Shown in pieces: positions 10,201 to 37,026 of a DNA stretch of 37,026 nt (position 1 is the stretch's first letter; each line of letters opens with the position of its first letter). The position numbers and the translations under genes are program-made. The stretch comes from an uncultured Clostridia bacterium. Lineage in GTDB: Bacteria > Bacillota > Clostridia > Christensenellales > UBA1242. Under the pieces are notes generated by a model, which was given only the letters and a program-made list of their open reading frames with translations, ran no database searches and was not told the origin of the DNA. The DNA is taken from positions 1 to 37,026 of the forward strand of contig CALVZE010000009.1 of the NCBI GenBank assembly GCA_944372445.1. Direction: 5' to 3'.

Positions 10201-13200
10201 TTTAATCAGCGCACAGACATACCTCTTACAGGTTTTAACATTATAATTGATTACACAAATCCAAAAAACACAGCCGAAACTCTTAGATTTAATGTCATGC
10301 TTCAAATTGACGGTTCAACTTATATAGACGGTAAGGCACTTGAAAACTCCTACGCAAAATTGGTAGGTGGGGAAATTCTTATTGATGTCTATGGCATCTT
10401 AGAGGAGCTTAACACTGTGTTCAAGTATGAAGACAGCTCGTTAATTCCATTCCCTAACAAGAGTGGCGAAGGTAATTATGTGTTCCGCATAAGTGAGGTA
10501 GGCACGCTAAACGATGAGATATATTTTAGTCCTTACATAACAAAGTTTAATGACAGAGATTTACTCTTCACAAAACTTCCAGAGGCGATCTCCGTCGTCA
10601 TCGACAGCGGTAATGTGGAATGGAATATTGATGAAAATTATATCGAATATATGGAAAAATTCTACATCTTCCTTTATGACAATGATAACACTGAGTTATA
10701 TAATAGGTATGAAACTGCGGACACAACCGAGCGCACCTTTAACGGCGACTTGTTCAAATGCTCAGGAAATGAATATAATATTTCTCTTGCCTGTGTTTCT
10801 AGCGACCCGTTTGTCATTTCTTCAAGCGAAAGGTTCGTGCTTGACACGGCGAACAATATTGCAATAGTTGTTAAAAATCAATTTAATTCCGAGCTTGAAT
10901 TAAGCGCAGGAACATTGTCTATAAATTGGAATTCTAATATAGATTGGGCAGATGATGATATAAATAAATCACATGATATATACGAGCTTTTAAGAGGTAT
11001 TAGGGAAGGTAACAACGTGACGCAAGATGTTGTCACGGCACTTGTTACAAACACTTTCTACTATCCTTTCACTTTCACTCTTAGAGACTTAGTAAATGGC
11101 AACGTTCGTCTTCGTTTCCGCTTTACCTCCTATAAAGACGCCGAAAAAACATCAATTGATTTTAGGCGCGTGGCTGATATGGATGCTAGATATATCTTCA
11201 CAGGCGACCTTTTAGGCACAAGCGATATTGATACGTTAAATGAGTATCAAGAGAAGTTTGTTGCAAACGCACCAGGCGGTCCAGGTAGTGGCGACGGAGA
11301 GCTTGTGGTTAAATTCTTTAACATTCTTAAATATAGCGTGGGCGGTGTTGGAAACTATAAAAACATCTTTGATTTCGCTTTTGAGGCTATTCAAGAGGGC
11401 AGTTATGAAATTGAATATTGCTTGCTTGGCAACTCTTCCACTTTAACAAGCGAGTGGAAAGTTTTGGCAAGTGGCGACAATCAAGACTTCTTTGTCAATC
11501 CAACTGTTCATGTCGAAGCAGGAATTGATGATGTCATAGTTGACGGACAAAAGGACATTGTCAGCGCTTATTACACCAAAATTTATCGCACGCAGATTTA
11601 TATGCAAGACGGCACAAAGCAGAACGCGACAACTTACTTTATGCAAATTTCAGGACAGAGCCAAACTGCAAGCGAAAAATACGGCATTGAAATTTCCTCT
11701 CTTGACGGGGGTGATTCGTGGAACGCCAAACTTGTCGGAAATGACGGACCTTCGTTTAGCGTGGAAAAGGTGGATGAAGATGATGACGGAGAATATGACT
11801 ATCTAAAACTCTACCTTAACATTAGTGTGGACGAAAATGGAACAAAGGGCTATAACGCTATATTAAGTCAATATCCAGATGTCTTTCAAAAGGGAGCATA
11901 TTACTTTGAAGTGTTTGCACAAGGAAACAACTATTCAATTTCAAGTAAATCTACCTTGTTCACTTTGACACTTTATAGTGCTTGTGAGGATTTCAAGGTT
12001 ACAAACGGCGAATTTTCTTGGACGGCATTTAGAAGCTTGCCAACGCAAATCATATACAAAGCTGTATCCAGCAGAAACCCTGCCACGGCAACGATATATC
12101 CACAAGAGAATTCCGTATCATATTTCAGTTTAGACAACCTTGATGCTGGCAAATATGAATATATAAAATTCGCAACGCTAGGCGGAATTGTTGGAAATCA
12201 AATCAACATCGACAGCGAAGTGTATATAGTGGAAAATGTATATAAGCTTGCAAGTCCAACAGTGACAACAGAGTTAAACGCTTTCGCTCTTCAAGATAAC
12301 AACAAGGGTGTTTATTCAAATGTTTACTCTGACGATAGAAGTATTAAGTATGAAGTGAATAACAATGCGAATGTTCAAAACACAAGCTTCATCTTCACTG
12401 CTCAAAGTTATGACACGAATATAAGCAAATCTATCTATGAAGCAGGCACAACAAACTACACCTCTTCCGCTGATGACCCTGACTATGTATATAAACTTAC
12501 CGAACTTTCTGCCGACAAATTTACCTTTACAACCTTGGGTTCAACAGCAAGTTACTCAGCCGTTCGCGACGGCACAGAACTGAATGTATATAACCTAACG
12601 ATGGCAAATCAAGGCACCTCTCTCAATATGACGGCAGTGAAATCAAACACAACAAACACCAGCGGAAAGATGCTTCCGTCAGTGCCAACTGCCTCTGTCG
12701 AAGACGGTGTGCTATCGTGGGCGCCGATGAGCTTTGAAAGCGAAGATATGGGCTTAGGCAATGGCACGATTGTTTATGAGGTTGGCGTGCAATTCTACGA
12801 GATAACCAACACCACTATCGGCACGACAACATCAAATATTGGCACAGAGATTGTGACATATACCACTGACACCTCATTTGACTTAGCACTTATTGAAGAC
12901 GCCTTCCCAGAATATATAAATGGCAGGGTGGAATATATCAAAGTGACACTTCAAGCACTCGTTTTAAATGTGGTGGAAAATGAACCTGTCGGCAGGAACT
13001 ATATCACGCTTATTGACGGCAAATATGCTTATGGTGACAACTTCACCTACACCTCATTGGAGCCGACAGAAGATGTAATGCCATACATTCTTCGTTCAAA
13101 CGGCTATGTAATTGAAAATTTGAGTTTGGCAGATAGTGTAACGAATCTTCAAGTTTTAGACGGGCGTTTGACATGGCAATATGAAGCTGAAAACGCAACA

Positions 13201-20275: not shown

Positions 20276-21052
20276 ATGAAAAAAGGAATTATTTTTACGG
20301 TTATAATACTTATTGTCGCTGCTGTTCTCACCGTGGTGTTTGTCACATTGTTCAAAGAGCGCGACACTGATGCAGTCGCTAATAAAGTAATCAGCGTTGT
20401 GGATGAGGGCTATCTTTCTGAAAATTCTGATAAAGAAGCATTAGAGGACTACCTTGATTACATGAGCGCCTCTGAGCAAAATGATGAAATAACAATGAGC
20501 AAAACTTTACTTGCCACATATGACAAGCTTGGAGATTTCTATAGAGAGCATATTGCTTTCACAAGTTATAATAGCACCTATAAGTCAAATAAAGGCGATA
20601 TAATTAACGGACTTGACTCTGCCAGCGACAGCATGGACGAGATGGTGAGTTATATAAACTCTCATACTGCGGGAGGCAATAGCTCTTGGGAAGCGCGCAC
20701 CTGGGATGATGTCAGAGTGATGATGTTTGAGTTTATTGAAGCAAACAACCGTGCTTTTTCAAGCCTTAGCTATGTTTATATCGCTTGCGAAAATTCTCAA
20801 ATTGTCAACAACGATTATACTAGCGAAGTGCTTAAAGCAATCAGCGAACATCTTTCTTCATACGGAAGTTTAGATATGAAAGGCAGACTAACTATGGCAG
20901 AAAATGTTTATAGAATGGCAACAAATTATCTTAAAACCGAACTTGTTTATGGCTATCTTTATGATGATATTTGGCAAGCCCAGATAGAAGATATTATGAC
21001 AAACGGCACTGATAGTTCCTATTATTCGTCATTTGTCGCAGGAACGCTGTAA
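20276..21052 (+). CDS. Membrane-anchored extracytoplasmic helical protein, unknown function
   Basis: A 258-residue protein with an uncleaved-type N-terminal membrane segment (about residues 4-26, IIFTVIILIVAAVLTVVFVTLF). The remainder is acidic, mostly alpha-helical and faces outward. No catalytic motif or named domain is recognised, and cysteine is nearly absent. ATG 20276 touches the dnaB stop codon and has AGGAGGGAG upstream. The stop is 9 nt before the next gene, a lipoprotein of similar composition, with AAGGAGGAAAG between them. The close spacing and the shared helical, extracytoplasmic character suggest the two products work as a pair at the membrane surface; this is an inference from context. 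Confidence 0.7.
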   Translation: MKKGIIFTVIILIVAAVLTVVFVTLFKERDTDAVANKVISVVDEGYLSENSDKEALEDYLDYMSASEQNDEITMSKTLLATYDKLGDFYREHIAFTSYNSTYKSNKGDIINGLDSASDSMDEMVSYINSHTAGGNSSWEARTWDDVRVMMFEFIEANNRAFSSLSYVYIACENSQIVNNDYTSEVLKAISEHLSSYGSLDMKGRLTMAENVYRMATNYLKTELVYGYLYDDIWQAQIEDIMTNGTDSSYYSSFVAGTL

Positions 21053-21061
21053 GGAGGAAAG

Positions 21062-22132
21062 ATGAAGAAAAAATTTATATCTATACTAGCACTTTTAGTT
21101 ATTTCTGTTGCCTCTGTGGTGACGCTTGCAGGATGCGGAGCGGGCATAAAGGTGGAAAATGTCAAAGCGTCCTACGAAGCTATGACCGAAACACTTGTTT
21201 CATACGATAGCGTTTTGAATAAAGGAGATGAAAGCGTATATCGTAACACAAAGGACTATTATCAAATATCTTATGGCGAAATAGTGGACGGCTACATCAG
21301 AAGTCAGGACGAAAATTATGTCGAATTAAAGGATTACTACAACAGCGTCTTCTCTTTTGCTATGAGCTATGTGGATGAAAACATTCAGGTCATAACAAAC
21401 CTTCTTGATGATGAAGTCAACAGTGCCACAAAAAAGACGCTTAAAGATTTAAAGGACAGTATTGACGATTTTAATGAAAGTGTTCATAATTTTGTAAGTG
21501 CAAGAAACAGGTTGGATGTATATTATCAAAATTATGGTAGCACCGCAAGTGAAGAAGAAAAAATGTCTAGGCTTCGCACCTTTAAACGAGATTATGTTGA
21601 CTTTGTTGACAAAAGTGTGCAGATGTCTTTAAGTCTTTCAAATTCGGTCGAGGCGACAGGAATATTAGACAGTGTAGAACATGTTAGGCTCACGAAAAAC
21701 TATATTTTAAACAAGATTTTGCGTGCTTATAATGAGTTATACATCTTAGACATCGGAACTTTTAATTTCAAAGAAACAACACCAACCGACACAAAGACCA
21801 GAATTGAAAATGTGTTAGACAAACTTCAAATTTTGATGAATGAATATTCGTCAATTATGCTATTAAATGATTCGGCACTAAAAGAGCTTACAAGTGAAGA
21901 ACTTGTTGCACTTAAAGATATGATGAATAAATTTTTGACCGAAATTGATGTTTATATTGAAGCCTTAGACACATTGAATGTAAGAGAACTTTGCGTGGAC
22001 TATAAAAACGAAATGGACGAATACTTGACTCACAATGACCGCGCTGAAATATGTCTTGAAAGAGTGGAAAACTTTGTGAACGTTTCCCTTCCAAACTTTC
22101 TTGACTATCTTGATGATGCTGTGAGAGTTTAG
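21062..22132 (+). CDS. Helical lipoprotein, unknown function
   Basis: A 356-residue lipoprotein. The signal peptide has KKK, a hydrophobic core and a lipobox LAGC, with the modified cysteine near residue 25. The mature part is predicted to be almost entirely alpha-helical, with repeated long amphipathic segments (LKDYYNSVFSFAMSYV, TKKTLKDLKDSIDDF, RIENVLDKLQILMNE, ALKDMMNKFLTEID). No enzyme motif or named domain is recognised. The ribosome binding site AAGGAGGAAAG precedes ATG 21062. It sits in the dnaB-gltX unit directly after another extracytoplasmic helical protein and 18 nt before gltX. The helical bundle could be a scaffold or a binding protein, but nothing in the sequence says which. 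Confidence 0.75.
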   Translation: MKKKFISILALLVISVASVVTLAGCGAGIKVENVKASYEAMTETLVSYDSVLNKGDESVYRNTKDYYQISYGEIVDGYIRSQDENYVELKDYYNSVFSFAMSYVDENIQVITNLLDDEVNSATKKTLKDLKDSIDDFNESVHNFVSARNRLDVYYQNYGSTASEEEKMSRLRTFKRDYVDFVDKSVQMSLSLSNSVEATGILDSVEHVRLTKNYILNKILRAYNELYILDIGTFNFKETTPTDTKTRIENVLDKLQILMNEYSSIMLLNDSALKELTSEELVALKDMMNKFLTEIDVYIEALDTLNVRELCVDYKNEMDEYLTHNDRAEICLERVENFVNVSLPNFLDYLDDAVRV

Positions 22133-22150: not shown

Positions 22151-23782
22151 ATGGATAACGAAAAATTAGCACAACTTTTGTTTCCGAACAACAGATTGAC
22201 TGTGGAGGAAATAGAGAAAAAATACCCTCAAAGAAATTTAAAAAAAGGTGCAGAAGTAACGCGTTTTGCGCCTAGTCCAACTGGCTTTATGCATATAGGC
22301 GGATTTTTTCAATGCATAATCGACAGAAATATTGCCAAAAGGTCGGGCGGAGTTTTCTATCTTCGCGTGGAAGACACTGATAAAAAAAGAGAATTAATCG
22401 GTGCCAGCACCATAATCTTAGAAACTTTAAAAAGGTATGGCTATTTGCCAGATGAATACGAAGAAAAGGGCGTTAAAGTTGTCGGGAATTATGGTCCATA
22501 TTTTCAAAGCGAGCGCGAAGAAATTTATAAGGCATATGCAAAAAAATTAGTGGCTGAGGGCAAGGCTTTTCCATGTTTTTGTCGAAAAACTGATGGGTTG
22601 AACGATGTGAAAGAAAAGCGCGAAAAGATGTTCGCCCTCGGTATCACAGAAGATAAAGATGTCTGCCGAAATTTGACGATTGAGCAGATTGAGGAATATT
22701 TAAAAGATGAAAAACCATTTGCAATAAAACTTAAATCGGCTGGAAACGGGCAGAATAAAATCAAAGTGCATGATGTTTTAAAAGGCGAACTTGAAATTCA
22801 GGAAAATGGTGAAGATGCCGTGCTTTTAAAGAGCGACTTTATGCCTACCTATGCCTTTGCTCATGCCATTGACGACCACCTGATGGGCACTACAACTGTG
22901 GTGCGTGGCGAAGAGTGGATTCCTTCCTATCCTCTTCACATTGAAATTCATAACGCTCTTAATTTTCCACTTCCTAAATATATTCACACACCGCTCATCA
23001 ATAAGATTCGTGAAAATGGCGGAAAAACCAAAATTTCAAAGCGTATAGACGCCGAGGCTGACATGCGTTTCTTTGCAAAAGAGGGGTATGAACCAAAGGC
23101 GCTTATTGAATATCTCACCAATCTGGCAAACTCCAACTTTGAGATTTGGCGTAAAAACAATCCTCTTCTTGATGTTGAGGAATTTCCGTTTGACGGCTTT
23201 AATATCACGGCTAATCGTCCTGTGTTTGATATTGTGAAATTGAACGATATTTCCAAAGACATGATTTCAAAATATACGGCAGAAACTTGTTATGAGAAAC
23301 TTCTTGCGTGGGCAAAAGAATTTTTTATGGAAAATGTTTCTTATCTTGAAAAGGACAAGGAATATGTTTTGAAAGTGTTAAACATTGACAGAGAAAAGGA
23401 AAAACCGAGAAAAGATATATACAAGTGGAGCATGGTGCTTGATTATTTTGATTACATGTTTAGCGCGCCGAAAGCTTATCAAATCGACGAGGTTGACAAA
23501 AAGAAGTTTGAAGAAGTATTGAGAAGTTACAAAAAGTATATTGATTTAAGCGATAAAGATGTTTGGTTTAACAGTATCAAAGAAATGGCAAGCAGTTTAG
23601 GTTATGCGACCGACAACAAGGAATATAAACTTAATAAAGAAAAGTTTAAAGGAAATGTGGCAAAGGTATGTGAATTTTTGCGTGTGGCAGTGACAGGGCA
23701 TAAAGACTCTCCTGATTTATACGAAATAATGAGCATTTTAGGTAAAGATAAAGTTTTGGAGAGAATTTCCTTAATTGTCTAA
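22151..23782 (+). CDS. gltX: Glutamate--tRNA ligase
   Basis: A 543-residue class I aminoacyl-tRNA synthetase that charges tRNA with glutamate. The HIGH-type signature FAPSPTGFMHIGG is at 39-51 and the KMSKS-type signature KISKR is at 294-298. VEDTDKKRE and the VVRGEEWIPSYPLHIEIHNAL block are diagnostic of GluRS/GlnRS enzymes. An FPCFCRK motif and a later VCR could form the zinc site of the insertion domain. It is longer than typical bacterial GluRS (about 470-490), with roughly 38 residues before the HIGH region, so it belongs to the longer clostridial-type form. AGGAG lies 5-6 nt before ATG 22151. No T-box leader fits in the 18-nt gap, so control must come from the upstream operon promoter. 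Confidence 0.95.
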   Translation: MDNEKLAQLLFPNNRLTVEEIEKKYPQRNLKKGAEVTRFAPSPTGFMHIGGFFQCIIDRNIAKRSGGVFYLRVEDTDKKRELIGASTIILETLKRYGYLPDEYEEKGVKVVGNYGPYFQSEREEIYKAYAKKLVAEGKAFPCFCRKTDGLNDVKEKREKMFALGITEDKDVCRNLTIEQIEEYLKDEKPFAIKLKSAGNGQNKIKVHDVLKGELEIQENGEDAVLLKSDFMPTYAFAHAIDDHLMGTTTVVRGEEWIPSYPLHIEIHNALNFPLPKYIHTPLINKIRENGGKTKISKRIDAEADMRFFAKEGYEPKALIEYLTNLANSNFEIWRKNNPLLDVEEFPFDGFNITANRPVFDIVKLNDISKDMISKYTAETCYEKLLAWAKEFFMENVSYLEKDKEYVLKVLNIDREKEKPRKDIYKWSMVLDYFDYMFSAPKAYQIDEVDKKKFEEVLRSYKKYIDLSDKDVWFNSIKEMASSLGYATDNKEYKLNKEKFKGNVAKVCEFLRVAVTGHKDSPDLYEIMSILGKDKVLERISLIV

Positions 23783-23788
23783 TTTTTT

Positions 23789-23813
23789 AGGATGTGACTA
23801 CACATCCTTTTTT
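23789..23813 (+). terminator. gltX terminator
   Basis: The stem AGGATGTG (23789-23796) / CACATCCT (23801-23808), with a 4-nt loop ACTA, is followed by T6. It lies 6 nt after the gltX stop codon and ends the unit that begins at 18605. Confidence 0.9.
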
Positions 23814-24139: not shown

Positions 24140-24204
24140 GGCAAATAAAAGTCGTTATTATATATAAAATATATTACATAACAATTATTACTATTTTATT
24201 TGCC
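24140..24204. promoter_or_regulatory. Long imperfect inverted repeat upstream of the second giant gene
   Basis: GGCAAATAAAA (24140-24150) is the exact inverse complement of TTTTATTTGCC (24194-24204). Inside, GTTAT and ATAAC plus alternating TA runs extend the symmetry. The right arm overlaps the likely -35 element of the next gene. It could be an operator, a hairpin or a cruciform-forming site; the sequence does not decide. Confidence 0.55.
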
Positions 24205-24229
24205 TTTTTGGTTTAGTTTTGTGTATAAT
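24200..24229 (+). promoter_or_regulatory. Candidate promoter of the second giant gene
   Basis: A perfect TATAAT (24224-24229) lies 18 nt after a weak TTGCCT (24200-24205). The poor -35 element overlaps the right arm of an inverted repeat, which suggests regulated rather than constitutive use. The leader would be about 24 nt and contains AGAAGAGG before ATG 24260. Confidence 0.55.
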
Positions 24230-24259: not shown

Positions 24260-27200
24260 ATGAAAGTAAAAAGTTTTTTAATATCGCTACTATTAATGAT
24301 TGGCGGTTCATTCGGAGCGTTTGCTTTGACCTTGGGGACAACCAATTTGTCACAAGCTGTCAGTGTGGACGCCAGCGTTTGGGACGGCGCGTATGCCACA
24401 AGCGTCAACACCGATGATGTTGATATCATAGGCTATAATGGTTCGGGTGGAGAAGTGTCGCTTTCGTCAGCTACCACCTTAAAGATTTACACAGCCAAAG
24501 GCTTTTCCTATTTTGCTGGGCAAGTTACCAATGGGAACACTTATGCAAACAAGACTATTTATCTTGAATGCGACATTGATTTAAGTGGCCACGCTTGGAC
24601 GCCTATGGGTGGAAAGACCACGTATTTTATGGGAACTTTTGATGGCAACAACAACACAATCTATAACCTCAGAAATAATTCCTCTTATACCACCTTTGGA
24701 CTCTTTTCAAAAGTTGAGGGAACAGTAAAAGATATTAACCTTGTTTCAGTTGATATTTCCTATACCGGCACTTTGTCCTCTTCTCAGTATGTTGGCGGTA
24801 TTGCGGGAGAACTTCATGGTGGAACAATTCAAGGGGTAAGTGTAAAGGGAAATATATATTCAAGTGCTTTCAATGCCACTTCATATGTTGGCGGACTTGT
24901 GGGCTATGCCTATGACGCAGGCATCAACGATTATGATACTTCAAGCCCTGCGATCATTGTGAATTCTTCCAACTATGCCTCAGTTTCCGGCGTTTCTGTT
25001 GTCGGCGGACTTGTGGGTGCGACTGACGGCGATGTAGATATTGTCACATCGTTTAACAAAGGGACAATTTCAAACAGTCAAAATTCTTTGACTTCTTCTA
25101 TAAGTGTCGGCGGACTTGTGGGTAGAGAGAGTGTGACAACAAGGAAATATTTAAACATTACAAATTCCTTTAACAACGGCGAAATCACACTTAATGCCAG
25201 CACAAACAATGTCGATGTTAAAGCGGGCGGAATACTTGGCAGTGCGGATAGCATTAGGTCAGGCTCTTCTCTTTTCAACTACTTTAAATTTAAGCATGTC
25301 TATAATGCCGGTGATTTCAATGTGTCGGGTTATTCAAGCGCCTCGAATAGGTCAGTGTATGTTGCTGGTCTTGTCGGTTTTGCTGATAGACCTGTCAATG
25401 TTTTTACAAATGACAGTTTAATAAGCTATGCTTTCAACATCGGCGACCTTGTTTCGTTAGACGGCTCTTCTAAAATTACGAGCATAGGCAGTAGGCTACA
25501 TTTTAGAGAGATTATGGGAACGACTATTTCCAATTATACGGCAACAGGTGTCAGTCAAAACGATGTCTATTTTGACTATGACGCGCAATATCAAATTTTC
25601 TATAATTCCTCGGCTTACAATGACCTTAGAAATATGATAAGCGTGCCACAACTTGATGGCAAGGCGACTTCTTATGAATTTTTGTCAACAAAGGCAAATA
25701 AGGCTAAAGGTATCTATGGTATGGGTCTTGAATTCTATAACGGCTCAAGCGGATGCTGGATGCTCAGCGAAACTGTCAACAACGGACTTCCTTATTTATA
25801 CTTCAACAACGAGGACGCAAACGATGATTGGGACAATACTGTTAGTGGCACATGGCAAGGAGAAGGAACGCTTACTTCTCCATACCTAATTTACACCGCG
25901 GAAGACTTGTCGCTTATTGCTGATAGGTATAATGCTGGCTCTTACAGTGAGGTTAGTGTTACATATTTTTCTCTTCAAAATGACATTGATTTAAGCTCAA
26001 AGGCGTGGGAACCTATCGGTATCAATAATTATTCCTTCAAAAATGCTGTTTTTGACGGCAATGGATATACTATTTCTGGTATCAACTGTTCTCTTCAAGT
26101 GGACTACAACCAAAGTGTTGGTTTGTTTGGAACAATAGAAAACGCTGTCGTGCGCAATGTGATTGTGGAAGATTTTAGATTTATAGGTAGCGCAAACTAC
26201 ACTTTAAATCGCGCCACACTTATCGGAAATGCTGTGCAGTCATATATCATCAACTGTCGCGACAACACCGGCTATACTTATGATAATCTTAATGACGAAA
26301 AGGTTTACACTATTGCAAACGCCTCGGCCTCTTATCTTATCTATGGCAGTAACAATGTTTCAGGCAGTTCGTATGACGCTGGAATGGAAAACATTTCAAG
26401 CACGACAAATCAATATTTAACAAAAGGCGCAGAAACACATTTAAACACAGAGGGCGGTGCGGTTTACGATGATGTTATAAGCACGGCTCAAAGAGAGATA
26501 ACACCGCACTTTGGTGATGGTAAATTTGTGGTGGTAGGAAGCAAGATAACAAGCGTGACACTCAACAGTGGTAGCAAACTATATGACAGAACATATATGA
26601 CTACACTTCCTGTTGACACGATTGAGGCAGATAGCGACAACGATTTAGACAACAGTTTCTATATTGTTAGAGAAGGCTACAAAATTGATGAAGATGGTTA
26701 TAATGTTAACGGCACGCTGGTTTCTAACTTGCCAGGAGCAAGTGCCTATGTAAATTTAATCAACTTAGGAATTACAGCCGTTTGGCAAAAAGCGCCTAAT
26801 GTTGAGTTTAAAGTATATTATAACACTTATGAGAAATATTGGAACACACAAAAAGGTCATTATGGAAATGTAAACTATGAAGGAATAGGCACTGACAAAT
26901 CAGTTTCGACCTCTATGCTATATAACTCTTTCAATAGTTTGGCAGGGCTTAGAGAAAACATATTGAGTGCCGTTTCGCCGTTAAGCAGAGAAAATTTTGA
27001 GATAGTTGGCGTTTATTCTGATTTTAGCAAAGGAGAATATAGCGGACTGAATATTCTTGCGGACAATCAAGACACAACGGGCTATTTCTTTAATACTGAT
27101 GATAACTATTATTTGAAATGGCAAGGAACAGAGGATGATGTATATACCGTTACATTAAATTTCAGCGATACGGCGGCTAATGGCTATGTTGATAGATATG

Positions 27201-30200
27201 CTTGGACAGAAGCTGTTGAATCGGTTGAAGTTATCTTCAACTCAATGAAGGCAAATGATAAAGTTGGCGAAGTTGACAGGCTCTCTTACGACATAGAAGA
27301 AACACTTTCTTCTAGCGACCAAATTATATTTAACTACTCAACCGAGGATGTTGACGAATATTATGAAAGTATTGAGATTGAGGTTAAACTGAAATTAGGC
27401 TTTACCTTTGATATGAAGTCAAATTCCGGTGCCTTTGTTGGACCGTCTAACAGCTCTGGAAATGCAAGTTATAATTCATATGTAGACACTTATGGAAGTG
27501 CTTTTGTTACATACCCTCCAAACGAAATAGAAGATTGGAGTAAAAATAATACACAAGAGGTTGCCACATATTCTTTTGGACAAGCGGTTGGTAATGCTGG
27601 TATTAATTTGGAAATTGCGCGTTCTTCAAATTCATTCAAATTGAATGTTGGAGAAGGAGTTTATTTTGCGCTTGCTTTGCCAGAGACCACTCTAAATTCA
27701 GGTTTCTTTGAGGTGTTTAACGGCGAAGGAGAGGACGGCTTTATTCCACTTCAAGAATATCACTATGACTTTTTCTTAAATGTAAGCAATCAACTGTTTG
27801 GATTTAGGTTCGGTTTGAATATGTTTGACAATTATATGCTTTCCACTGTAAGAGATTTTGATATGGAAAATACAGCTGGTTATGTTAATTTTGATAATGA
27901 TGAGAATTTTAACGGGTTTTTAATTCGTCTATATTTTCCAGAAAATGAGCAAGGCGAACAATATAAATATTATCTCTATGAATTTGGCGAGATATTAAAT
28001 GATGAAGTAACCATTCTTTCAGAGTCGCTTTATCTTGTGGAAGCGGTAGAATCGCAAGCTCGAAACGACAGTGCAAATTATAGAAGTTACAATGGCTTTA
28101 CTTTTAAGATAATTGACAGAATCGCAAACATTGAGCGCGATAAAGATGCGGTTGCTGACGAGAATACTACTAACATGGAATACACCGTCAACTTCTACAC
28201 AAATCAAGAATTTGGCTTAATCTTTTCAACTGAAAGCGCTGATAATTATATGGTAGAATATTCTGGCAACAAAGATGCCTCAGAAGATAGAGATTCCACT
28301 CTTGAAGTTTTGATGCCGGTAGAAAATATTACATCAAGCAATCTACAAAAAATCTACTATGATTTCTCCAAGGCAAAAGATAAGGGCGAGAATTTCTATT
28401 CTGTTGCTGTCTATCTTGGAGCATCAAGCGACATTGAAGCAAACGAACTTATCACAGTTTCTCAAAAGAGAATAACGGCGAAAGTTTCTATTCAGTTTGT
28501 GGACGAAAGCGGTAGGCTTATATCTAACACAGAAGAGATGCCTTTACCTACTATATATCTTTCGCTAAATGAAACAGACAACGCCGTTCAAAATGTGGAA
28601 AAGTGGACAAAATATACACAAGGTTCACAGATTACAATAAGTCCGCTTACTTCACAATCTATGACGCTCAGAATTGTCAACAACGAATATTATCAATGGA
28701 TTTATCGTAAAGACAATTTAACTTCAACCGCGGTTAAATTTAGCGAATTTAAAGGACAGACTGAAGATGGTGTCTATTATAAAGATGACAAAAAACTTGA
28801 AAATCTGTCCTATGAGCTATATTTAAACATCGTTAAAGACGGAGCGATGTTTGATTCAAGTGGAAATCCTTTTAATTATGAAGAGTTAAAGCAAGGATCC
28901 TCTTTAAATGATTATTTTGTCGTTTATGAGCCATCAGACACAAGCAGTGCAATCATGGGCGTCACCGGGCTTATTTATGAAAGCGAAAAGACGGCTTTTG
29001 ACTTCAACATGTATTTTGACGAAGCTTATGTTTCGTCTGGCGAAGGGCAACCGCAACGACAGCTAGAACATTTGCCAGAGGGCTACGATTTCGTTTTGAC
29101 TTTTGTTTTGAAAGATGTAGATTACAGTGTCAATATTGAAACAAAATATAAACAGACAGCAGAAAGCGAACTATATGATGATGACACAAACATAAGTGAG
29201 GTATTTACAGACACAAGCGAAGGCGCCGCCAGTGTTGATTTAGGGGCGCATGATGGTTTTGGTATGCGCACAGGCTCTAATCAAGTTTCCACATTTAGCA
29301 CTCGCAATAATACTTCTAGCGGTTATGATTTTGCCGGCTTCCAAATTGTCACTGATGGCGAGGAGGATACAGTAATCAGCGAATATATCAGCCATGAAAC
29401 AGAAGCAGAATACTCTTCTATGGTTGCCTTCCTAGATTATTATAGCGAATATTTACATTATGACAGCGAAAAAGATAGTTACGCAATCGACTTACAGGCG
29501 ATATATATTAGTAACACAATTGAGTATGAAGCAAGCGGAAGCGGAGATCTTACCAATATTACAGACGGCAGAACAATCGTTGAGAACTACAATGGTTCAA
29601 CTTCTCTAAAATATCTCTCGCAGGGCATTTCTGAGGTGCATGGGCTGACGGCTGGAACATACTACTATGGCAGTAGTGCTACCGGTGAAGCCGATGACCT
29701 TGGTGAAGCTAATTTTGTATTTGAAATGAATGAGTATTATTCTAACCGATATGATTTTACAGGCGTGGCACTTATGGATGAAGAATCATATTTACTTTCA
29801 AGCAAGATCTACGATGACAGTTTGTATCTCACAAAATTCAGTGCAAGTGTTTACACTGACCAAATTACGATTGAAACAGGGCTTAATAAAATAACGGTGG
29901 ACGGAGACCTTGTTAAGGAATACTTCAAAAACAATATCGGCTCTCTTGCAGGACAAAAAATATATATTGTGCCGGTGGTAGAGCAGAAGACCTTAATTGT
30001 TTCCTTAACTTCGGGTGCAAGCGAAGATGAAATAGTTTATGATAAAGACGGCAATGACACAACCTTAAAAGAGGTCCACTTACAATTCTATTACAACACC
30101 GCAACGAACATCGAATTTGACAAAGAATACCTTAAAAATAAAGAGGATGAACTTGAAAGTTATTATCTTGTAAGCACAGAGGACAGCGTCATCCTAAATG

Positions 30201-33200
30201 ATTATTTCAACAAAAAATCAGGCTATCAGACAAACGGTTGGCTTGTCTATAACGGCGATAAAACAGAAACAACGCCAATTTACATCAATTATTACAGAAT
30301 AGACGAAAATTACTTTGCGCCAGAATATTTAGACGAATTGGGCGTGGCAGACTATCGCGTCCATATAGAACGCAACTATATATCTAACACCTATTATATC
30401 AATTATTCTAGTGGCGACGAGAGAGTGGAAGGTAGTAGCGTTTTTGGTATTTCCACAGGAACAACATCTAGCACTCTTTCTAGTTATGGCGAAACGGTTG
30501 AGATAGCACAAAATGGCTTCTTGCTGACAGGCTATACCTTCTTAAATTGGAACACAAATATCGACGGAACAGGCAAAAGCTTTGAAGCAGGCGAAGTGAT
30601 TACAGAAAGCTTATGCACAGGCGAAAGTGGCGACACGGCTATCACACTTTACGCTCAATGGAGTGCAAAGAAGTATGATGTTGAAGTTGTTTTCAATGGA
30701 GGAACAGTGGAAGGCAGTGATGCCGAAAACATGCTTATTGAAGATGTTGACTACAACACAAGATTGTCAATGTTATCTAGCATTGTTGTGACAAGAGAAG
30801 GCTTCACCTTTGACGGCTTCTACACCTTGGCACCAGGCGGAATTAAGTCTGACTATTATAAGGTGGACGAATATTCCATTTTAAATAGTTCAATCTATGG
30901 CTTTAATGATGTTGAAGGTGATGTTGCGATTACAATCTATGCCACATGGCGCTTTACAGGTGAAGTAAGCTTTACCGTTGACAACAATACTAAATCTTAT
31001 ACCTATGCAGGAGAAGATATTTCTTCGCCGATAAGTGACTATAAGTTTAACGGAACAAACTTGCAATTTTCATTCGACGACTTCTTAGTGACAACCTCTT
31101 TCCCTAATGTTGAAGTGTCTTATGAAGTAAGCGGGGCAACCTTTGACGGAAATAATATTATTCTCACAAAGCCAAATGTTGGAACTTATTATGTATATCT
31201 AACATTGACATTGACTGACACTAGCGAGTTTTATCCAAGTGGTGAAATTGCCACTGCAAGCGGAGAATTTGTCTTCATAATCAACCCTGCTGATATTGAC
31301 TACACCTATTCAAGCGACTATTCATTATATTATGAAAACATCAAATATCTTGTATCTCTTATCGAGAGCGAGGCAGAGATAGCAAAGTATGAAAATTATA
31401 ACAATTTCACAAATATGATGAACAGCTTAAAGACAGACGGAGTTTTATCTTCTACTGCAACTGCTGACAACACTTATGAATATCTATTTATGAAGTATTA
31501 TAACATGCTTAACAACAAAATTGTCAATGCGGAAAGTTATAATAAATTTATCACATTTAGAAATTGGACTTATGATGAATATCTTGCTTATTATGACAAC
31601 ACAAACTACTTCTCTTCTGAAGGCGTAAGCGGTGATGATGTTGCCGTTGACCTAGTAGATGAGAGAGCGACAAGAGCAAATGTGCTTCAAAGTGCTTTCC
31701 TATTAAGTTATGATGTAAACAACAGAATAAGCTCAGCTACACTATATGGCGAAGGCGTGTCTACAATCTATAATGCTTCTCAATTTGTTTTGACTTCTCC
31801 TTCGGCTGTCAGTGTGACAAGCGATATACAGATTGAAACAATTGAAGTTATTTCTTCTTATAATATGCTATCTAACACTTCTTATGAAGTGCGTGCTTAT
31901 ATCAACTCTTCAAATGGAGAACTCTTAAATAACTATAATCTTGAAATGATAGAGCTTGACGGCGAAATTAAATACTACATCAACCTTCCAAACGCATATA
32001 TGCTTATACAAGTTTTGAAACTTTCAAACAACAGCGCAATGCAGTCTAGGTTCTATGACAAGAGTGTGGAAGAAATAGAGGTTAAATATAAAGGTGATAA
32101 ACAAGACACCTATTTTAGGGCGCTTGACAGAACGACTTACACACAACTTGAAGAAGGGTCCACTTTCTATATCAATTTAAGGCTTTATACCTCCAACATA
32201 GGCAACAGCGACCACGACACAAAATACAACTTCTACACACCAGAAAATCACTTTGATTTCTCATTTTATCAGGTGCTTTCTGTTGTAGACGGCAATGAAG
32301 AAAATGTAACAAGCGATGTGAATTTAATTCTTTCCGAAGATTTCTCATTTACAATCTATAATGTTGAAAACACGGTTCAGATAAAGCTAAATCCTAAACT
32401 TTTAACTAAGGTGGACGGATATAGGCAAGTTGTTGACCTTGACGAACAGTATTATGAAAATCTTTTCAGTGTGACAGGTTTCACATACTCTCTTGACGGA
32501 GAGAGTGAGGATATTGCGGATGAAAGTTCGGGCTTAGAGGACGGAAGATATTATACGGAAGAGGGCGGAGTGCTTCTCTTTGAAATTACAGGAAACAACA
32601 CAGGTTCTCCTGTTATTATCGCCACAAAGCCACTGACCTCAATAGTAATTCAAGTTACGCCTAGACTTGGCTCTTATATAAGACTTGTGGACATAGGTCA
32701 AGTTGAGGCATATGAGTTTGAGGGTGACGGCGTCAGAGCGTCAGGTGAATATGTGTTTGATTTAAGCGAAGACTCAGGAGAAATCGTCTATGAAGAGGAC
32801 GCTATAACCGAAGTAAATTATTATGCTACTTTCAGCGACCTTGTCAAAGTCAACATTGACTATAACTTGCCTGTTAATAATGACGAAATGACCACATACT
32901 TAAAACTTGCAGAGGACACAAGTGAAGACATAATGTTCCCTTTTGAAGATTTCTTGACTTGTGAAAGATTGTCTTATGTAGCTGGTGATGGGTCGGAAGC
33001 AGATTATTCCACAATCTTTACGGGCGTCAACGGAACATATGTTGGTGTAACTGACAACATTTTTGCTCCTGTTCAGCTTAAAGCTTATTGGGGAATAGGT
33101 GATATATATGTAAGTTCAAGATTAGTAAATTACAGACAGAGCGTTGGCACGCTGGAAAGCGTCTATGCGTATAATGTTTGCACATTTAGTAACAATCAAA

Positions 33201-36200
33201 GCGAACTTTTTGACTACAAGTTTGAAATTGTCTATCGTGGTAAAGAGGGCGAAGTAACTAGAGTTGTAGCGGAGAGCAACAACTTCAACACTCTTGTCTA
33301 TAACCTTGAAAACGGTGGAACTATCAAAGATAATGGTATCTATCAGATAAGAATTACAGTGACAATGAAGGAGGCTTATAGAGATATCCTTTCTGACCCA
33401 TCGAAATATCAAATAGTCAATGAGAATGTTTCTTTTGAAATTGATTTACAACCTATTAAGATTGTCGGCATTGAATATGTGGGACAAAGTGAGATAACCT
33501 ATGACGGCGAGGAACACAACAGCAGTTTCTCTCTAAATGTTTCCTATCATATGTTTGATGCAACACTTGACGACTATAACTTAGAGGATGTTCAAGTTGT
33601 AAACTATGTCTTTGGACAAGAGGGAATGTTTGACATCACGATTAAAAGTGGCGACCTTGTGGTTACATCTGTTAAGAATGTCGGAGAGTATATCATTGAT
33701 TTTGAAATTGACGAAAGTTACTATCTCTATGAAGGCGTGACAACTTCTTTCACCTTAAATATTTTAAAAGATGTCATAAATCTAGAAGAAGAGAATATCA
33801 CGTTCTCAAAGAAGTTCAATACAGCCGACCCTGAACTTAAATACACAATTAGCACGAACGGCGAAACATTGGAGTTCAACTTAAATAGGACAGCGGGCGA
33901 AGATATTGGAAATTATGACTTATTCTTAAATAGTGACAATGGTTTTGTTTGCTCTAACCTTACCTCTAACTATCAAGTTGTATATGGCGCTACCGTGCTT
34001 TATGACGGCACTCTTCAAAATTTAACTACATCGGTTGGCGACTTTGAAATTGTAAAGGCAGACACTTTAAGACTTTCATGGCAAGGTTCAAATGTAATTC
34101 AAGAAACATATAACACAAATGGCTACAAACTCCAAATTAAAGACGGCGAAGTGATAGTTTATAGCGAAGATAATGAAGTCACAAATAGCGCCTTAATAGT
34201 TTACGATGTAAATGTCGGCGCGGAAGTCGGTGAGAACCTTTTAATTATTGAAGAGTTACTCAATTATGACAATATCACCTTGATGCTTTATAATTCGCTT
34301 AGTTATGAAACGGCAATAGACAGCGCGGTTTATGAAATTAGAGTGGTTGTAAAAGAGGGTGCTGAGATTGCAAACTACTACAACAGCATCATCTTTGATG
34401 AGGGTTACACCTTTGAGATTTTGCCAATGCCGATTGATGTTTCTGGAATATCGCTCAGCAAGGTATATGACGGCAATCCAAATCTTAGAGTTGATTTAGA
34501 AGGCAATGTCGTAGGCGAAAATTATGAAGGTATTTACATAAACGCCACATTCGCAACCTATCATGCGGGCGAAAATATCAATGTTTCACTTGTGCTTTCA
34601 GCAACCGAAGGATATAACGCGAACAACTATACTCTTAGCGCGGTCACTCACAAAGGAAAAATTGAAAAACGCGATGCCATTCTTAACATTTCAGCACGCT
34701 ATGAAGAGGATGAAAGTTCTTATGTGTATGGCGAATTAAATAGAAATAATCTAGAAGACAATTTAAAACTGACAGTGTTAGATTTGGACGGAAGCACAGA
34801 CTTAACCGACATCTTTAATATTTCCTCTTACACGCTTAACTTAGATTTACAAAACGCACAAGCAAACAGACTCGGCTTCTTCTATCAAGGTGCATATAAT
34901 GTTGCGGTTGTAAGCTATTCCTTTGCTGATTTCAATATGACGGAGATAAATAGTAGCAGTGTTACAATCTCTCCTTATGAATACAACTTGGTTTTGCCTG
35001 AAAACTATATCAAAATTACCACCGTTGACACTGTTTCTACTTATACTGACACACAAACCTATGCTGTCACAGGCGACTCTATAACTCTATCCTATATTCC
35101 TGACGGCTTGGAACAAGGCACGACCGGTGCGGAAGGACAATATGACCTTCTTTTGAATGGTGCAGAGTCCTTTGTAAATGGCAGTATTATTGTGACACTT
35201 TCTGCGGAAAATTCCTTCCAAATTGTGCCAACCGAGGAGATAATTTTCCTTAAATTTGAAGATACCAGCCTGTTGAACCTTGATTACAATGGCTATAACT
35301 ACAACATGAGCATTGAAGACAACAATCTTGTCATTGAAAACGAAAATTCATCTCCATTAAATCTAGCTTTCAACCTATACAGAAAGACAGGCTCGGGAGA
35401 CGAGGCGTTTACAGGAAGTATAACCTCTGTCAACATCTATTTAAATGGTAATGTTCACACCTTTAAAGATGCAGGAAATTATAGACTTTATCTTTCGATT
35501 GAAGCGGAGGGCGCAACCAATTTTGCTCTCTATGAAAATTACTACATTGTTGTTGACGCGATTGAGGTTGACACAACTTCTTTAAATCTAACAAAAACAT
35601 ATGACGGCACAAACAGGTTAGAAAATATCGACTTTGCTGAGCGCATTAATGATGGAGTTGTAAGTGACGATGTGTCGATAACAGCGATTTTTGCAACAAG
35701 TCAAGTTGGAACTGACATTGATGTCACCCTATACCTCAATGGAACATCGGGTAAGAATTATAAGTTTGCGGGCGATATAAACTCTGCCTTAGGTGAAATT
35801 ATTAAGGCCAACGCTGTGATAGCTCTATCTAACAGCACTTATAATTATGGAGCGCTGAAAGCTGATAGTGGGTTTGTTTATATAGTAACCTCAGGTGAAA
35901 AGACTGTTTCAACGACAGAGTATAGCGTTGTTCCAGAAATCTTAAACGGTGAATATTCCGAGAGTGATTATTTGACTGTTGGAAGTTATAATTTGTCACT
36001 CGTGATTGAAAGCAATAACTATAATATAACGCCTTCAACATTGACATTTAGTGTTGTTCCGTTTAAACTTAATTTCACTTTCACAACAGACGGAGCTTAC
36101 AGAACAAGTTATGGTTCAGAGGAAAGCTTGGAAGACAGCTTTGTGCGAGACTACAACACAATCTTCGGCGACACTATCGAAGTTACCTTTACAAGAAGTG

Positions 36201-37026
36201 AGGGAAGTGAAGTTGGCTACTATAAAATACTTTCAGCCTCTGTCGTTGACGAGAATTACGAAGTTGAAAGCGTGCAAGACACAAGCACCAACGGCGCGTA
36301 TAGAATAACACCTTCCTCAGAGCGTTTCTATCTTCTTATAAGTTCAGCTGATACTGTTGCTGGCAACGATAGTGCATGCCTCAATATGGAACTTACTTAT
36401 GACGGACTTAGTTATTCTAGCTTAACATTCGAGGTTGACGAACTTGCAAAGAACTATAAAATTATCTTGACAGACACAACCATGATAAGCACAAAAGAAT
36501 ACATCTTAAATCTCTACACCTACAACGAAGACGAAGATGTTTACACAAAGAGTTCAAGTTTTGATGCTACACTTTCTGCAAATCTCAGATTTGCGTCAGG
36601 CGTTCAAGCAAAAAATGCCGGCGATTATTCAGTCTTTGCAGAAAACATCACAAGCACAAATTTTGATGTGATATTCGGTATGGCAAGCACCCTTTCGTCT
36701 TATGTTGTGAAAGTCTTGCCAAAGGAATTAACCTATAAGCAAAGCGCAATTTCTAAGGAATTTGACAATAAGAACGCTATTATTTACTATGAAGATGCTA
36801 GTGAGATTTTAAACGGCATCATTTCGGGCGAGTCCTTATCCATAACTCTTACAATGTATGACGGCGCGACAATCGCTAGATATGTGGGCAGTGATTACAG
36901 CGTTCAAGCTGTTTTAACTAACGGAGCAAACTACACTATCTCCGGCACTCTTACAGGTGAAATAACCAAAGCAAAGGTTGGCTTATATATTGAAAGTGCG
37001 GAAGTTGAATATGGACAACAGCCTAT
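24260..37026 (+). CDS. Giant secreted modular surface protein (GLUG, InlB-type repeats, YDG/MBG array), 3' end outside window
   Basis: The frame is open for 4255 codons and has no stop before the window edge. A signal peptide (MKVKSFLISLLLMIGGSFGAFA) predicts export. Residues about 66-400 and 530-720 form GLUG-type, beta-helix-like coils (YVGGIAGE, YVGGLVGY, VVGGLVGA, SVGGLVGR). The second block opens with GTLTSPYLIYTAEDL at 536. InlB-type (Listeria-Bacteroides, Flg_new-like) repeats end in ITAVWQ (about 840), LYAQW (2130-2134) and IYATW (2226-2230). Residues about 2353-2490 are unusually helical. From about 3050 to the edge, YDG/MBG-type repeats follow, with YDG at 3081, 3248, 3403, 3781 and 4047 and NY...I-x-K strands near 3456, 3833 and 4224. 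Cysteine is rare. AGAAGAGG precedes ATG 24260. The role is probably adhesion or surface display. The anchor, if any, lies beyond the window. Confidence 0.85.
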   Translation, partial: MKVKSFLISLLLMIGGSFGAFALTLGTTNLSQAVSVDASVWDGAYATSVNTDDVDIIGYNGSGGEVSLSSATTLKIYTAKGFSYFAGQVTNGNTYANKTIYLECDIDLSGHAWTPMGGKTTYFMGTFDGNNNTIYNLRNNSSYTTFGLFSKVEGTVKDINLVSVDISYTGTLSSSQYVGGIAGELHGGTIQGVSVKGNIYSSAFNATSYVGGLVGYAYDAGINDYDTSSPAIIVNSSNYASVSGVSVVGGLVGATDGDVDIVTSFNKGTISNSQNSLTSSISVGGLVGRESVTTRKYLNITNSFNNGEITLNASTNNVDVKAGGILGSADSIRSGSSLFNYFKFKHVYNAGDFNVSGYSSASNRSVYVAGLVGFADRPVNVFTNDSLISYAFNIGDLVSLDGSSKITSIGSRLHFREIMGTTISNYTATGVSQNDVYFDYDAQYQIFYNSSAYNDLRNMISVPQLDGKATSYEFLSTKANKAKGIYGMGLEFYNGSSGCWMLSETVNNGLPYLYFNNEDANDDWDNTVSGTWQGEGTLTSPYLIYTAEDLSLIADRYNAGSYSEVSVTYFSLQNDIDLSSKAWEPIGINNYSFKNAVFDGNGYTISGINCSLQVDYNQSVGLFGTIENAVVRNVIVEDFRFIGSANYTLNRATLIGNAVQSYIINCRDNTGYTYDNLNDEKVYTIANASASYLIYGSNNVSGSSYDAGMENISSTTNQYLTKGAETHLNTEGGAVYDDVISTAQREITPHFGDGKFVVVGSKITSVTLNSGSKLYDRTYMTTLPVDTIEADSDNDLDNSFYIVREGYKIDEDGYNVNGTLVSNLPGASAYVNLINLGITAVWQKAPNVEFKVYYNTYEKYWNTQKGHYGNVNYEGIGTDKSVSTSMLYNSFNSLAGLRENILSAVSPLSRENFEIVGVYSDFSKGEYSGLNILADNQDTTGYFFNTDDNYYLKWQGTEDDVYTVTLNFSDTAANGYVDRYAWTEAVESVEVIFNSMKANDKVGEVDRLSYDIEETLSSSDQIIFNYSTEDVDEYYESIEIEVKLKLGFTFDMKSNSGAFVGPSNSSGNASYNSYVDTYGSAFVTYPPNEIEDWSKNNTQEVATYSFGQAVGNAGINLEIARSSNSFKLNVGEGVYFALALPETTLNSGFFEVFNGEGEDGFIPLQEYHYDFFLNVSNQLFGFRFGLNMFDNYMLSTVRDFDMENTAGYVNFDNDENFNGFLIRLYFPENEQGEQYKYYLYEFGEILNDEVTILSESLYLVEAVESQARNDSANYRSYNGFTFKIIDRIANIERDKDAVADENTTNMEYTVNFYTNQEFGLIFSTESADNYMVEYSGNKDASEDRDSTLEVLMPVENITSSNLQKIYYDFSKAKDKGENFYSVAVYLGASSDIEANELITVSQKRITAKVSIQFVDESGRLISNTEEMPLPTIYLSLNETDNAVQNVEKWTKYTQGSQITISPLTSQSMTLRIVNNEYYQWIYRKDNLTSTAVKFSEFKGQTEDGVYYKDDKKLENLSYELYLNIVKDGAMFDSSGNPFNYEELKQGSSLNDYFVVYEPSDTSSAIMGVTGLIYESEKTAFDFNMYFDEAYVSSGEGQPQRQLEHLPEGYDFVLTFVLKDVDYSVNIETKYKQTAESELYDDDTNISEVFTDTSEGAASVDLGAHDGFGMRTGSNQVSTFSTRNNTSSGYDFAGFQIVTDGEEDTVISEYISHETEAEYSSMVAFLDYYSEYLHYDSEKDSYAIDLQAIYISNTIEYEASGSGDLTNITDGRTIVENYNGSTSLKYLSQGISEVHGLTAGTYYYGSSATGEADDLGEANFVFEMNEYYSNRYDFTGVALMDEESYLLSSKIYDDSLYLTKFSASVYTDQITIETGLNKITVDGDLVKEYFKNNIGSLAGQKIYIVPVVEQKTLIVSLTSGASEDEIVYDKDGNDTTLKEVHLQFYYNTATNIEFDKEYLKNKEDELESYYLVSTEDSVILNDYFNKKSGYQTNGWLVYNGDKTETTPIYINYYRIDENYFAPEYLDELGVADYRVHIERNYISNTYYINYSSGDERVEGSSVFGISTGTTSSTLSSYGETVEIAQNGFLLTGYTFLNWNTNIDGTGKSFEAGEVITESLCTGESGDTAITLYAQWSAKKYDVEVVFNGGTVEGSDAENMLIEDVDYNTRLSMLSSIVVTREGFTFDGFYTLAPGGIKSDYYKVDEYSILNSSIYGFNDVEGDVAITIYATWRFTGEVSFTVDNNTKSYTYAGEDISSPISDYKFNGTNLQFSFDDFLVTTSFPNVEVSYEVSGATFDGNNIILTKPNVGTYYVYLTLTLTDTSEFYPSGEIATASGEFVFIINPADIDYTYSSDYSLYYENIKYLVSLIESEAEIAKYENYNNFTNMMNSLKTDGVLSSTATADNTYEYLFMKYYNMLNNKIVNAESYNKFITFRNWTYDEYLAYYDNTNYFSSEGVSGDDVAVDLVDERATRANVLQSAFLLSYDVNNRISSATLYGEGVSTIYNASQFVLTSPSAVSVTSDIQIETIEVISSYNMLSNTSYEVRAYINSSNGELLNNYNLEMIELDGEIKYYINLPNAYMLIQVLKLSNNSAMQSRFYDKSVEEIEVKYKGDKQDTYFRALDRTTYTQLEEGSTFYINLRLYTSNIGNSDHDTKYNFYTPENHFDFSFYQVLSVVDGNEENVTSDVNLILSEDFSFTIYNVENTVQIKLNPKLLTKVDGYRQVVDLDEQYYENLFSVTGFTYSLDGESEDIADESSGLEDGRYYTEEGGVLLFEITGNNTGSPVIIATKPLTSIVIQVTPRLGSYIRLVDIGQVEAYEFEGDGVRASGEYVFDLSEDSGEIVYEEDAITEVNYYATFSDLVKVNIDYNLPVNNDEMTTYLKLAEDTSEDIMFPFEDFLTCERLSYVAGDGSEADYSTIFTGVNGTYVGVTDNIFAPVQLKAYWGIGDIYVSSRLVNYRQSVGTLESVYAYNVCTFSNNQSELFDYKFEIVYRGKEGEVTRVVAESNNFNTLVYNLENGGTIKDNGIYQIRITVTMKEAYRDILSDPSKYQIVNENVSFEIDLQPIKIVGIEYVGQSEITYDGEEHNSSFSLNVSYHMFDATLDDYNLEDVQVVNYVFGQEGMFDITIKSGDLVVTSVKNVGEYIIDFEIDESYYLYEGVTTSFTLNILKDVINLEEENITFSKKFNTADPELKYTISTNGETLEFNLNRTAGEDIGNYDLFLNSDNGFVCSNLTSNYQVVYGATVLYDGTLQNLTTSVGDFEIVKADTLRLSWQGSNVIQETYNTNGYKLQIKDGEVIVYSEDNEVTNSALIVYDVNVGAEVGENLLIIEELLNYDNITLMLYNSLSYETAIDSAVYEIRVVVKEGAEIANYYNSIIFDEGYTFEILPMPIDVSGISLSKVYDGNPNLRVDLEGNVVGENYEGIYINATFATYHAGENINVSLVLSATEGYNANNYTLSAVTHKGKIEKRDAILNISARYEEDESSYVYGELNRNNLEDNLKLTVLDLDGSTDLTDIFNISSYTLNLDLQNAQANRLGFFYQGAYNVAVVSYSFADFNMTEINSSSVTISPYEYNLVLPENYIKITTVDTVSTYTDTQTYAVTGDSITLSYIPDGLEQGTTGAEGQYDLLLNGAESFVNGSIIVTLSAENSFQIVPTEEIIFLKFEDTSLLNLDYNGYNYNMSIEDNNLVIENENSSPLNLAFNLYRKTGSGDEAFTGSITSVNIYLNGNVHTFKDAGNYRLYLSIEAEGATNFALYENYYIVVDAIEVDTTSLNLTKTYDGTNRLENIDFAERINDGVVSDDVSITAIFATSQVGTDIDVTLYLNGTSGKNYKFAGDINSALGEIIKANAVIALSNSTYNYGALKADSGFVYIVTSGEKTVSTTEYSVVPEILNGEYSESDYLTVGSYNLSLVIESNNYNITPSTLTFSVVPFKLNFTFTTDGAYRTSYGSEESLEDSFVRDYNTIFGDTIEVTFTRSEGSEVGYYKILSASVVDENYEVESVQDTSTNGAYRITPSSERFYLLISSADTVAGNDSACLNMELTYDGLSYSSLTFEVDELAKNYKIILTDTTMISTKEYILNLYTYNEDEDVYTKSSSFDATLSANLRFASGVQAKNAGDYSVFAENITSTNFDVIFGMASTLSSYVVKVLPKELTYKQSAISKEFDNKNAIIYYEDASEILNGIISGESLSITLTMYDGATIARYVGSDYSVQAVLTNGANYTISGTLTGEITKAKVGLYIESAEVEYGQQP

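Follow-up and report, generated by a model that had tools for sequence, protein, structure and literature searches.

The window, the whole stretch of 37,026 nucleotides analyzed here, is the entire contig C9 of an uncultured Clostridia genome that comprises 37 contigs and 1.12 Mb and is rated 99.7% complete. From the ATG at position 24260 of the forward strand, a reading frame of 4,255 codons runs without a stop up to the contig end, as the initial annotation had claimed, and the complete gene proved to be longer still (Table 1). The final 77 bases of C9 have a single other match in the genome, an identical sequence at one end of contig C19, and joining the two contigs, with C19 read on its minus strand, yields a frame of 6,303 amino acids that closes with TAG, the 3' end that had been left to be looked for, and is free of internal stops and frameshifts. 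A 77-base overlap is what a de Bruijn assembler of that word length leaves. The join is supported by this overlap and by the frames of relatives, not by reads: the orthologue in genome G087, uninterrupted on its contig C3, has 6,300 amino acids and 77.5% identity to the joined frame across 6,285 positions. The probability that a random frame of the same composition would remain open over 6,303 codons is about 10^-200. The frame spans a contig break in its own genome, a relative in G124 contains an internal stop, and the longest frame of locus L102 stops early, all of which could be taken to indicate an assembly artefact or a decaying gene. This explanation is refuted by the relatives with contiguous, intact frames of about 6,300 amino acids, such as that of G087; the even passage of the G087 alignment through the C9-C19 join and the low dN/dS (see below) also speak against it, and we regard it as extremely improbable.

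Table 1. Features of the giant gene and its upstream region (window positions; aa, residues of the joined protein)
Feature	Position	Strand	Remarks
gltX, upstream neighbour	22151..23782	+	kept in 10/10 clade 1 relatives examined
Intrinsic-terminator-like hairpin after gltX	23789..23808	+	1 found vs shuffle mean 0.0
Sigma-70-like promoter, TTGCCT-18-TATAAT	24200..24229	+	30 b 5' of start codon
Giant surface protein gene	24260..37026	+	codons 1-4255 of 6303; rest on C19
N-terminal hydrophobic segment, signal peptide, aa 3-26	24266..24337	+	relatives' N-termini similar
First GLUG-type segment, aa 56-340	24425..25279	+	internal repeats ~70 aa apart
Second GLUG-type segment, aa 496-668	25745..26263	+	profile-homologous to first and to aa 6156-6259
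Unclassified part, aa 826-2000	26735..30259	+	contains least conserved stretch
InlB-type (Flg_new) domain, aa 2067-2115	30458..30604	+	Pfam, over cut-off
Helical insertion in beta array, aa 2355-2476	31322..31687	+	model of aa 2340-3440
MBG_2-like domain, aa 3183-3243	33806..33988	+	Pfam, below cut-off
YDG domain, aa 3394-3462	34439..34645	+	Pfam, over cut-off
YDG domain, aa 3769-3837	35564..35770	+	Pfam
Bases shared by C9 and C19	36950..37026	+	identical to C19 23870-23946, minus

The start codon is preceded by AGAGGTTGAT. Promoter-like sites are not more frequent than expected by chance (5 found vs a shuffle mean of 5.4), and the giant gene is probably the first of a separate transcription unit, given the terminator-like hairpin after gltX together with the promoter-like site. 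The giant occupies a fixed locus in the relatives. In 29 of the 30 loci compared (L079-L108), a uppP homologue is encoded on the same strand, and in 27 it follows the longest frame at a distance of 46-230 bases; in L102, uppP comes after the early stop, L104 contains only a fragment of the giant, and in L105 the contig ends after the giant. uppP was assigned from the best match in NCBIfam, which falls below the cut-off (168 vs 217 bits); the matches for gltX, dnaB, typA and trpS are above theirs. In the clade that includes the window (hereinafter clade 1), gltX precedes the giant in every relative examined, with trpS in between in five of the ten, and a trpS-like gene lies next to the giant in 7/7 loci of clade 2, six times on the opposite strand and once, in G008, on the same one (one trpS was identified by scanning and the others were named by eye). 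Because the same neighbours, uppP and gltX/trpS, recur across the loci, the gene is inherited at one place. Two genes upstream of gltX, 20276-21052 (258 aa, with an N-terminal hydrophobic stretch) and 21062-22132 (356 aa, lipoprotein-like), have no NCBIfam match; both are conserved between dnaB and gltX in clade 1 relatives and diverge much faster than their neighbours. Downstream of the cluster of the giant, on C19 (L010:1-4057, L011), there is a type II CRISPR-Cas system with a Cas9 of 1,095 amino acids; frames resembling Cas1 and Cas2, as well as a repeat array, were named by eye. The initial annotation described the genes of this organism as otherwise small, which does not hold: the window contains a second giant frame (4243-15087, forward strand) encoding a putative lipoprotein of 3,614 amino acids, so called from what we take to be a lipobox, with GLUG-like repeats at its end and no Pfam match over the cut-off.

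Hydropathy analysis of the whole 6,303-aa protein reveals just two hydrophobic windows, the N-terminal one listed in Table 1 and another at aa 6262-6294, which is followed by a basic tail. The protein thus has the layout of a type I single-pass membrane protein, with a signal peptide, one C-terminal membrane helix and a short basic tail; it is acidic (net charge -554) and contains 10 cysteines. Among the modes of attachment that had been proposed as worth looking for at the C-terminus, the membrane segment is present, and neither an LPXTG anchor nor SLH or other wall-binding repeats were seen: LPxTG is found within the last 120 residues in 0 of 41 giants, and Pfam scans of all slices detected no SLH family. 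An LPGTG motif at aa 4394 was considered and rejected as an anchor, its position being internal to the array. Sortase (PF04203) is not detected in this genome and is found in 2 of the 112 genomes of the genus, compared with 3 of 14 control genomes; the two matches, in G036 and G004, are possibly on foreign contigs. Given the lack of a sortase in the genome and of LPxTG near the ends, we conclude that the anchor is the membrane helix. Two other proteins of the same genome with GLUG regions (L005:9472-13830 and L006:11324-12013) share a C-terminus of ~45 amino acids ending in TEYACI, which is unlike the membrane anchor of the giant.

The three surface-repeat families that had been read from the sequence are all present, partly under the Pfam cut-offs. 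Matches over the cut-off are those to Flg_new (PF09479, InlB type; 28.8 bits, cut-off 27), which was also matched in 9 of 15 scanned pieces from seven giants, and to YDG, the latter at aa 3394-3462 and further on C19; YDG also exceeds the cut-off in a scan of the whole window frame, where aa 3769-3837 is the best stretch. Glug (PF07581) at aa 175-199 (17.8 bits, cut-off 20.5) and MBG_2, with a second copy at aa 3968-4006, remain below. By profile comparison, the GLUG segments at aa 56-200, 496-668 and 6156-6259 are mutually homologous (97-99%), that is, units of this type occur both near the N-terminus and next to the membrane helix. The region of aa 3250-4430 contains super-repeats spaced ~385 aa that include both YDG domains, and the window part of the gene contains no DNA tandem repeat. 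The slice comparison for G000 comprises starts up to 3796 (2,673 + 2,711 results of 6,328 pairs), with longer slices spanning the whole protein. Long stretches of the giant have no Pfam match, and PDB sequence searches with the N- and C-terminal parts identified no solved relative.

Structure prediction for slices of the protein, which had been suggested as a check, was performed for two stretches of ~1,100 amino acids: aa 2340-3440 (mean pLDDT 86.8, pTM 0.48; alignment of relatives with 23 rows) and the last 1,084 amino acids of the G087 orthologue, which stand in for the window protein's own C-terminus encoded on C19 (mean pLDDT 85.9, pTM 0.43; 25 rows). Both alignments were made without L102 (early stop), L109 and the short or unplaced L081, L084, L104, L108 and L110, and that for aa 2340-3440 additionally without L099, L103 and L105. 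Both stretches are predicted to fold as strings of beta domains, whose positions relative to one another are uncertain, and not as disordered segments; the C-terminal model closes with a single long helix (1048-1083). The insertion at aa 2355-2476 is predicted, with high confidence, to be compact and all-helical. Foldseek and VIA-align matches include pilins, the TIE protein, SraP, the InlB B-repeat (7nms, matching the C-terminal model with Z 6.1, rmsd 2.7 and 70 aligned) and other Ig-like strings, all with Z < 8; they therefore indicate a common arrangement and no more.

The second-ranking Foldseek match for aa 2340-3440 is the EA1 S-layer protein. Combined with the strongly acidic composition and with the start of uppP shortly after the giant in most loci, this match would be compatible with a structural component of the envelope (a coat resembling an S-layer, or a spacer) instead of an adhesin, made together with the cell-wall lipid-carrier enzyme UppP. 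However, the EA1 match is scattered over many domains (rmsd 30), the SLH family is missing from the Pfam scans, and a single gene whose length is strongly variable between species would be a poor fit to a regular lattice. Accordingly, we consider an envelope component unlikely.

The giant is widespread in the genus. With the C-terminal 600 amino acids as the query, 110 of the 112 genomes have a match at E <= 0.001 and 96 at E <= 5e-18, a cut that we chose to separate full-type from GLUG-only matches (the 96 include a few fragments from contig ends). The remaining 16 genomes, searched with a profile, yielded short, mostly GLUG matches in 15 cases and none in one; in G023, which belongs to these 16 and is rated 99% complete, the InlB-type domain is absent as well. 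Given these 16 genomes without a comparable C-terminal match and the lack of the InlB-type domain in G023, the gene is not indispensable. Among 391 genomes of the class, a part of 411 positions without GLUG is complete only in the genus (7/7 genus genomes, the window's own included), and outside it gives short, weak matches only. Other genera of the family encode giants that share a large portion of the C-terminal part, including ones of 6,267, 6,584, 7,247 and 8,682 amino acids. Frames of 9,208-10,254 amino acids are also seen in other genera of the family, and in the same genus an open frame of 11,500 amino acids (G072, contig C2 near 56581, minus strand) has a weak match to the juxtamembrane profile. 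The records of the relatives (32 loci) mostly read 'uncultured Clostridia bacterium' and in one case 'uncultured Christensenella sp.'; deer or rabbits are mentioned in some of the isolate labels. In the literature searched, we found no report of this protein.

Comparison with the G087 orthologue gives dN/dS values of 0.05-0.14 in the computable segments, with synonymous sites near saturation. The giant is under purifying selection along its length, including both protein ends, and its most conserved stretches include the GLUG ends and the juxtamembrane part. The gene occupies 18.9 kb, or 1.7%, of the 1.12-Mb genome, and this cost, the intact relatives, the purifying selection and the single locus all support the initial view of a costly and probably important surface molecule; display on the surface and importance for the cell are likely.

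The giants fall into two length classes. Among 41 of them, 31 have 5,981-6,543 amino acids and 10 have 4,297-4,549, a ratio that is not a census given that the proteins were picked by hand and that includes G029, whose N-terminus is cut by a contig end. Intact relatives of both classes are found on single contigs, and stop-to-stop lengths show the same two classes plus values of 4,925, 5,669, 6,832, 7,067 and 7,689. Clade 1 (21 rows) has the long form throughout. In G002, slices of 250 amino acids from aa 1313 to ~3240 each match a partner ~1,700-1,900 amino acids onward, with 98-99.9% probability. By these profile matches, the long form of clade 2 contains an ancient tandem super-duplication of a block of ~1,900 amino acids. 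The block copies, A and B, have 27-32% identity within one protein and are about as distant from each other as copies of different species, which indicates that the duplication is old; they now share almost no DNA identity, and G002 contains no long direct DNA repeat. The block borders were set by profile comparison; pairwise alignment misplaced them, and the rows for G107-G128 and G002-G077 are unusable.

Three short proteins retain traces of both copies. In G128, G090 and G134, which have one block each, its early part matches copy A in the long sister and its later part copy B, with the switch at about aa 2200-2400, 2550 and 2400, respectively. Controls built from long proteins by removing A or B keep mostly one sign; the control made from G107 without B is weak, being near zero over much of its length, and the others are clear. 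These comparisons identify the three proteins as A/B chimeras, each of which has lost about one period, and because the switch points lie on separate branches, the losses are separate events. The amount lost fits one period in G128 (1,872 vs an A-B offset of 1,864-1,883), fits it roughly in G090 (1,915-1,935 vs 1,924-1,977) and fits it less well in G134 (1,767 vs 1,894-1,943); G011, G021, G028, G074 and G077 show no clear A/B pattern. Five length-class changes are needed on the C-terminal tree and also on the N-terminal tree, which was built without G029; the starred branches force five changes on the former and three on the latter.

G110 (7,672 aa; contig C3, L131/L132) contains three block copies, with an exact in-frame repeat of 4,888 bp at a spacing of 4,989 bp that reflects either a recent duplication within the frame or a mistake in the assembly. 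A strict rule by which length changes in one step was rejected, since G088 (6,828 aa) owes its length to many copies of a smaller unit; G474 and G477, two further giants, contain little or none of the block. Clade 1 has a single block copy (aa 2701-4800 of G000 match A as well as B from G002); a longer N-terminal half brings its proteins to the same 6,300 amino acids. It is conceivable, although on balance doubtful, that length itself is the selected trait, in a lineage-wide fibre whose reach is set by the ~1,900-aa block (~20 domains), gained or lost in register, with two clades arriving at ~6,300 amino acids by different architectures. Diverse neighbours are discussed as an aid to the folding of large multidomain proteins in the portion of PMC8201768 used here; if this applies to the giant, its length might be changeable only in steps of entire ancient blocks.

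The relatives preserve length even as their sequence identity drops to ~27-30%, and where length shifts, it does so by whole blocks, nearly in register. Both observations could be accommodated by a shield or decoy against phages, antibodies or predators, for which length would be selected and no specific ligand would exist. Nevertheless, purifying selection also acts on both protein ends, and the conservation of the GLUG ends and the juxtamembrane part suggests that the protein is more than a spacer, which makes a shield or decoy quite unlikely.

Huge bacterial proteins, surface proteins included, are surveyed in PMC11573180, as far as the sections relevant here go. The closest parallels are Giant1-5 of Apilactobacillus kunkeei and the Periscope Proteins. 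According to the parts of PMC12863079 drawn on here, Giant1-5 are proteins of 3,000-8,000 amino acids from an animal-associated bacterium with a small genome (1.5 Mb), are present in all genomes of that species, and have a signal peptide and a long elongated middle; Giant4 consists largely of arrayed beta domains. By the same account, they differ from the giant described here in being encoded by five consecutive genes with alpha-helical or beta repeats, as opposed to one gene for diverse, non-identical domains, and in having an SRRP-like N-terminal beta-solenoid and a DUF5776/SH3b-like C-terminus in place of a C-terminal membrane helix; DUF5776 is not among the families matched in the Pfam scans of giants. 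Periscope Proteins (SasG, Rib, Sgo_0707) are likewise surface stalks, in which the number of repeats varies the length and is expected thereby to alter the projection of the N-terminus; as the consulted part of PMC8201768 has it, their domains have high DNA identity, and domain number shifts rapidly, even from one similar strain to another. Here, in contrast, the unit is ~1,900 amino acids, its copies are 27-32% identical, and the change is seen between species. Variation in length of the Periscope kind is found in clade 2 (1, 2 or 3 blocks) and not in the clade of the window, and tandem domains of high identity are lacking, with the exact repeat of G110 as the exception. The giant also resembles InlB B-repeat, or Listeria-Bacteroides repeat, proteins (PF09479, PF18998) in its Flg_new domain and in the fold match to 7nms, although this is one of several domain types in it and neither an LRR part nor LPXTG is seen; with MBG/YDG repeat proteins (PF18676, PF18657), it shares YDG over and MBG_2 below the cut-off but differs in its super-repeats, of ~385 amino acids in clade 1 and ~1,900 in clade 2. 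The giant works like Giant1-5 and the Periscope Proteins while lacking defining features of each, namely DUF5776, highly identical repeats and a sortase anchor.

Given that the protein is predicted to be exported by Sec and held in the membrane, with GLUG units at both ends and many different beta domains in between, a role in attachment appears most likely. The explanation that we favour, with a probability of roughly 0.64, is a membrane-anchored adhesive fibre with GLUG at both ends, whose reach changes in large block steps in one clade. Under this model, the 6,303-aa single-pass protein would be exported by Sec and held by its one C-terminal membrane helix and basic cytoplasmic tail, without a sortase. 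Outside the cell, it would form a string of beta domains of the InlB type, the MBG/YDG type and types for which Pfam has no name, with GLUG units at the far N-terminal end and again beside the membrane; about 65 domains placed end to end would give a fibre of ~0.2-0.3 micrometre. The N-terminal GLUG part would be the binding end, attaching either to a partner cell or to a surface in the gut; the remainder would set the reach, which in one clade would be stepped according to whether one, two or three copies of the ~1,900-aa block are present.

As a rule, giant proteins of bacterial surfaces are accessory, their sequences are highly repetitive and their assemblies are poor. The giant described here is carried, at a fixed locus, by most species of a genus of apparently uncultured gut Clostridia with small genomes, and the relatives have diverged sufficiently for its history to be read. 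Two questions thereby become testable, namely what makes a reduced genome retain a protein of such cost and whether selection acts on the length of a bacterial surface fibre as such, and the block-wise steps, together with the chimeric short forms with their differing junctions, are natural experiments for both.
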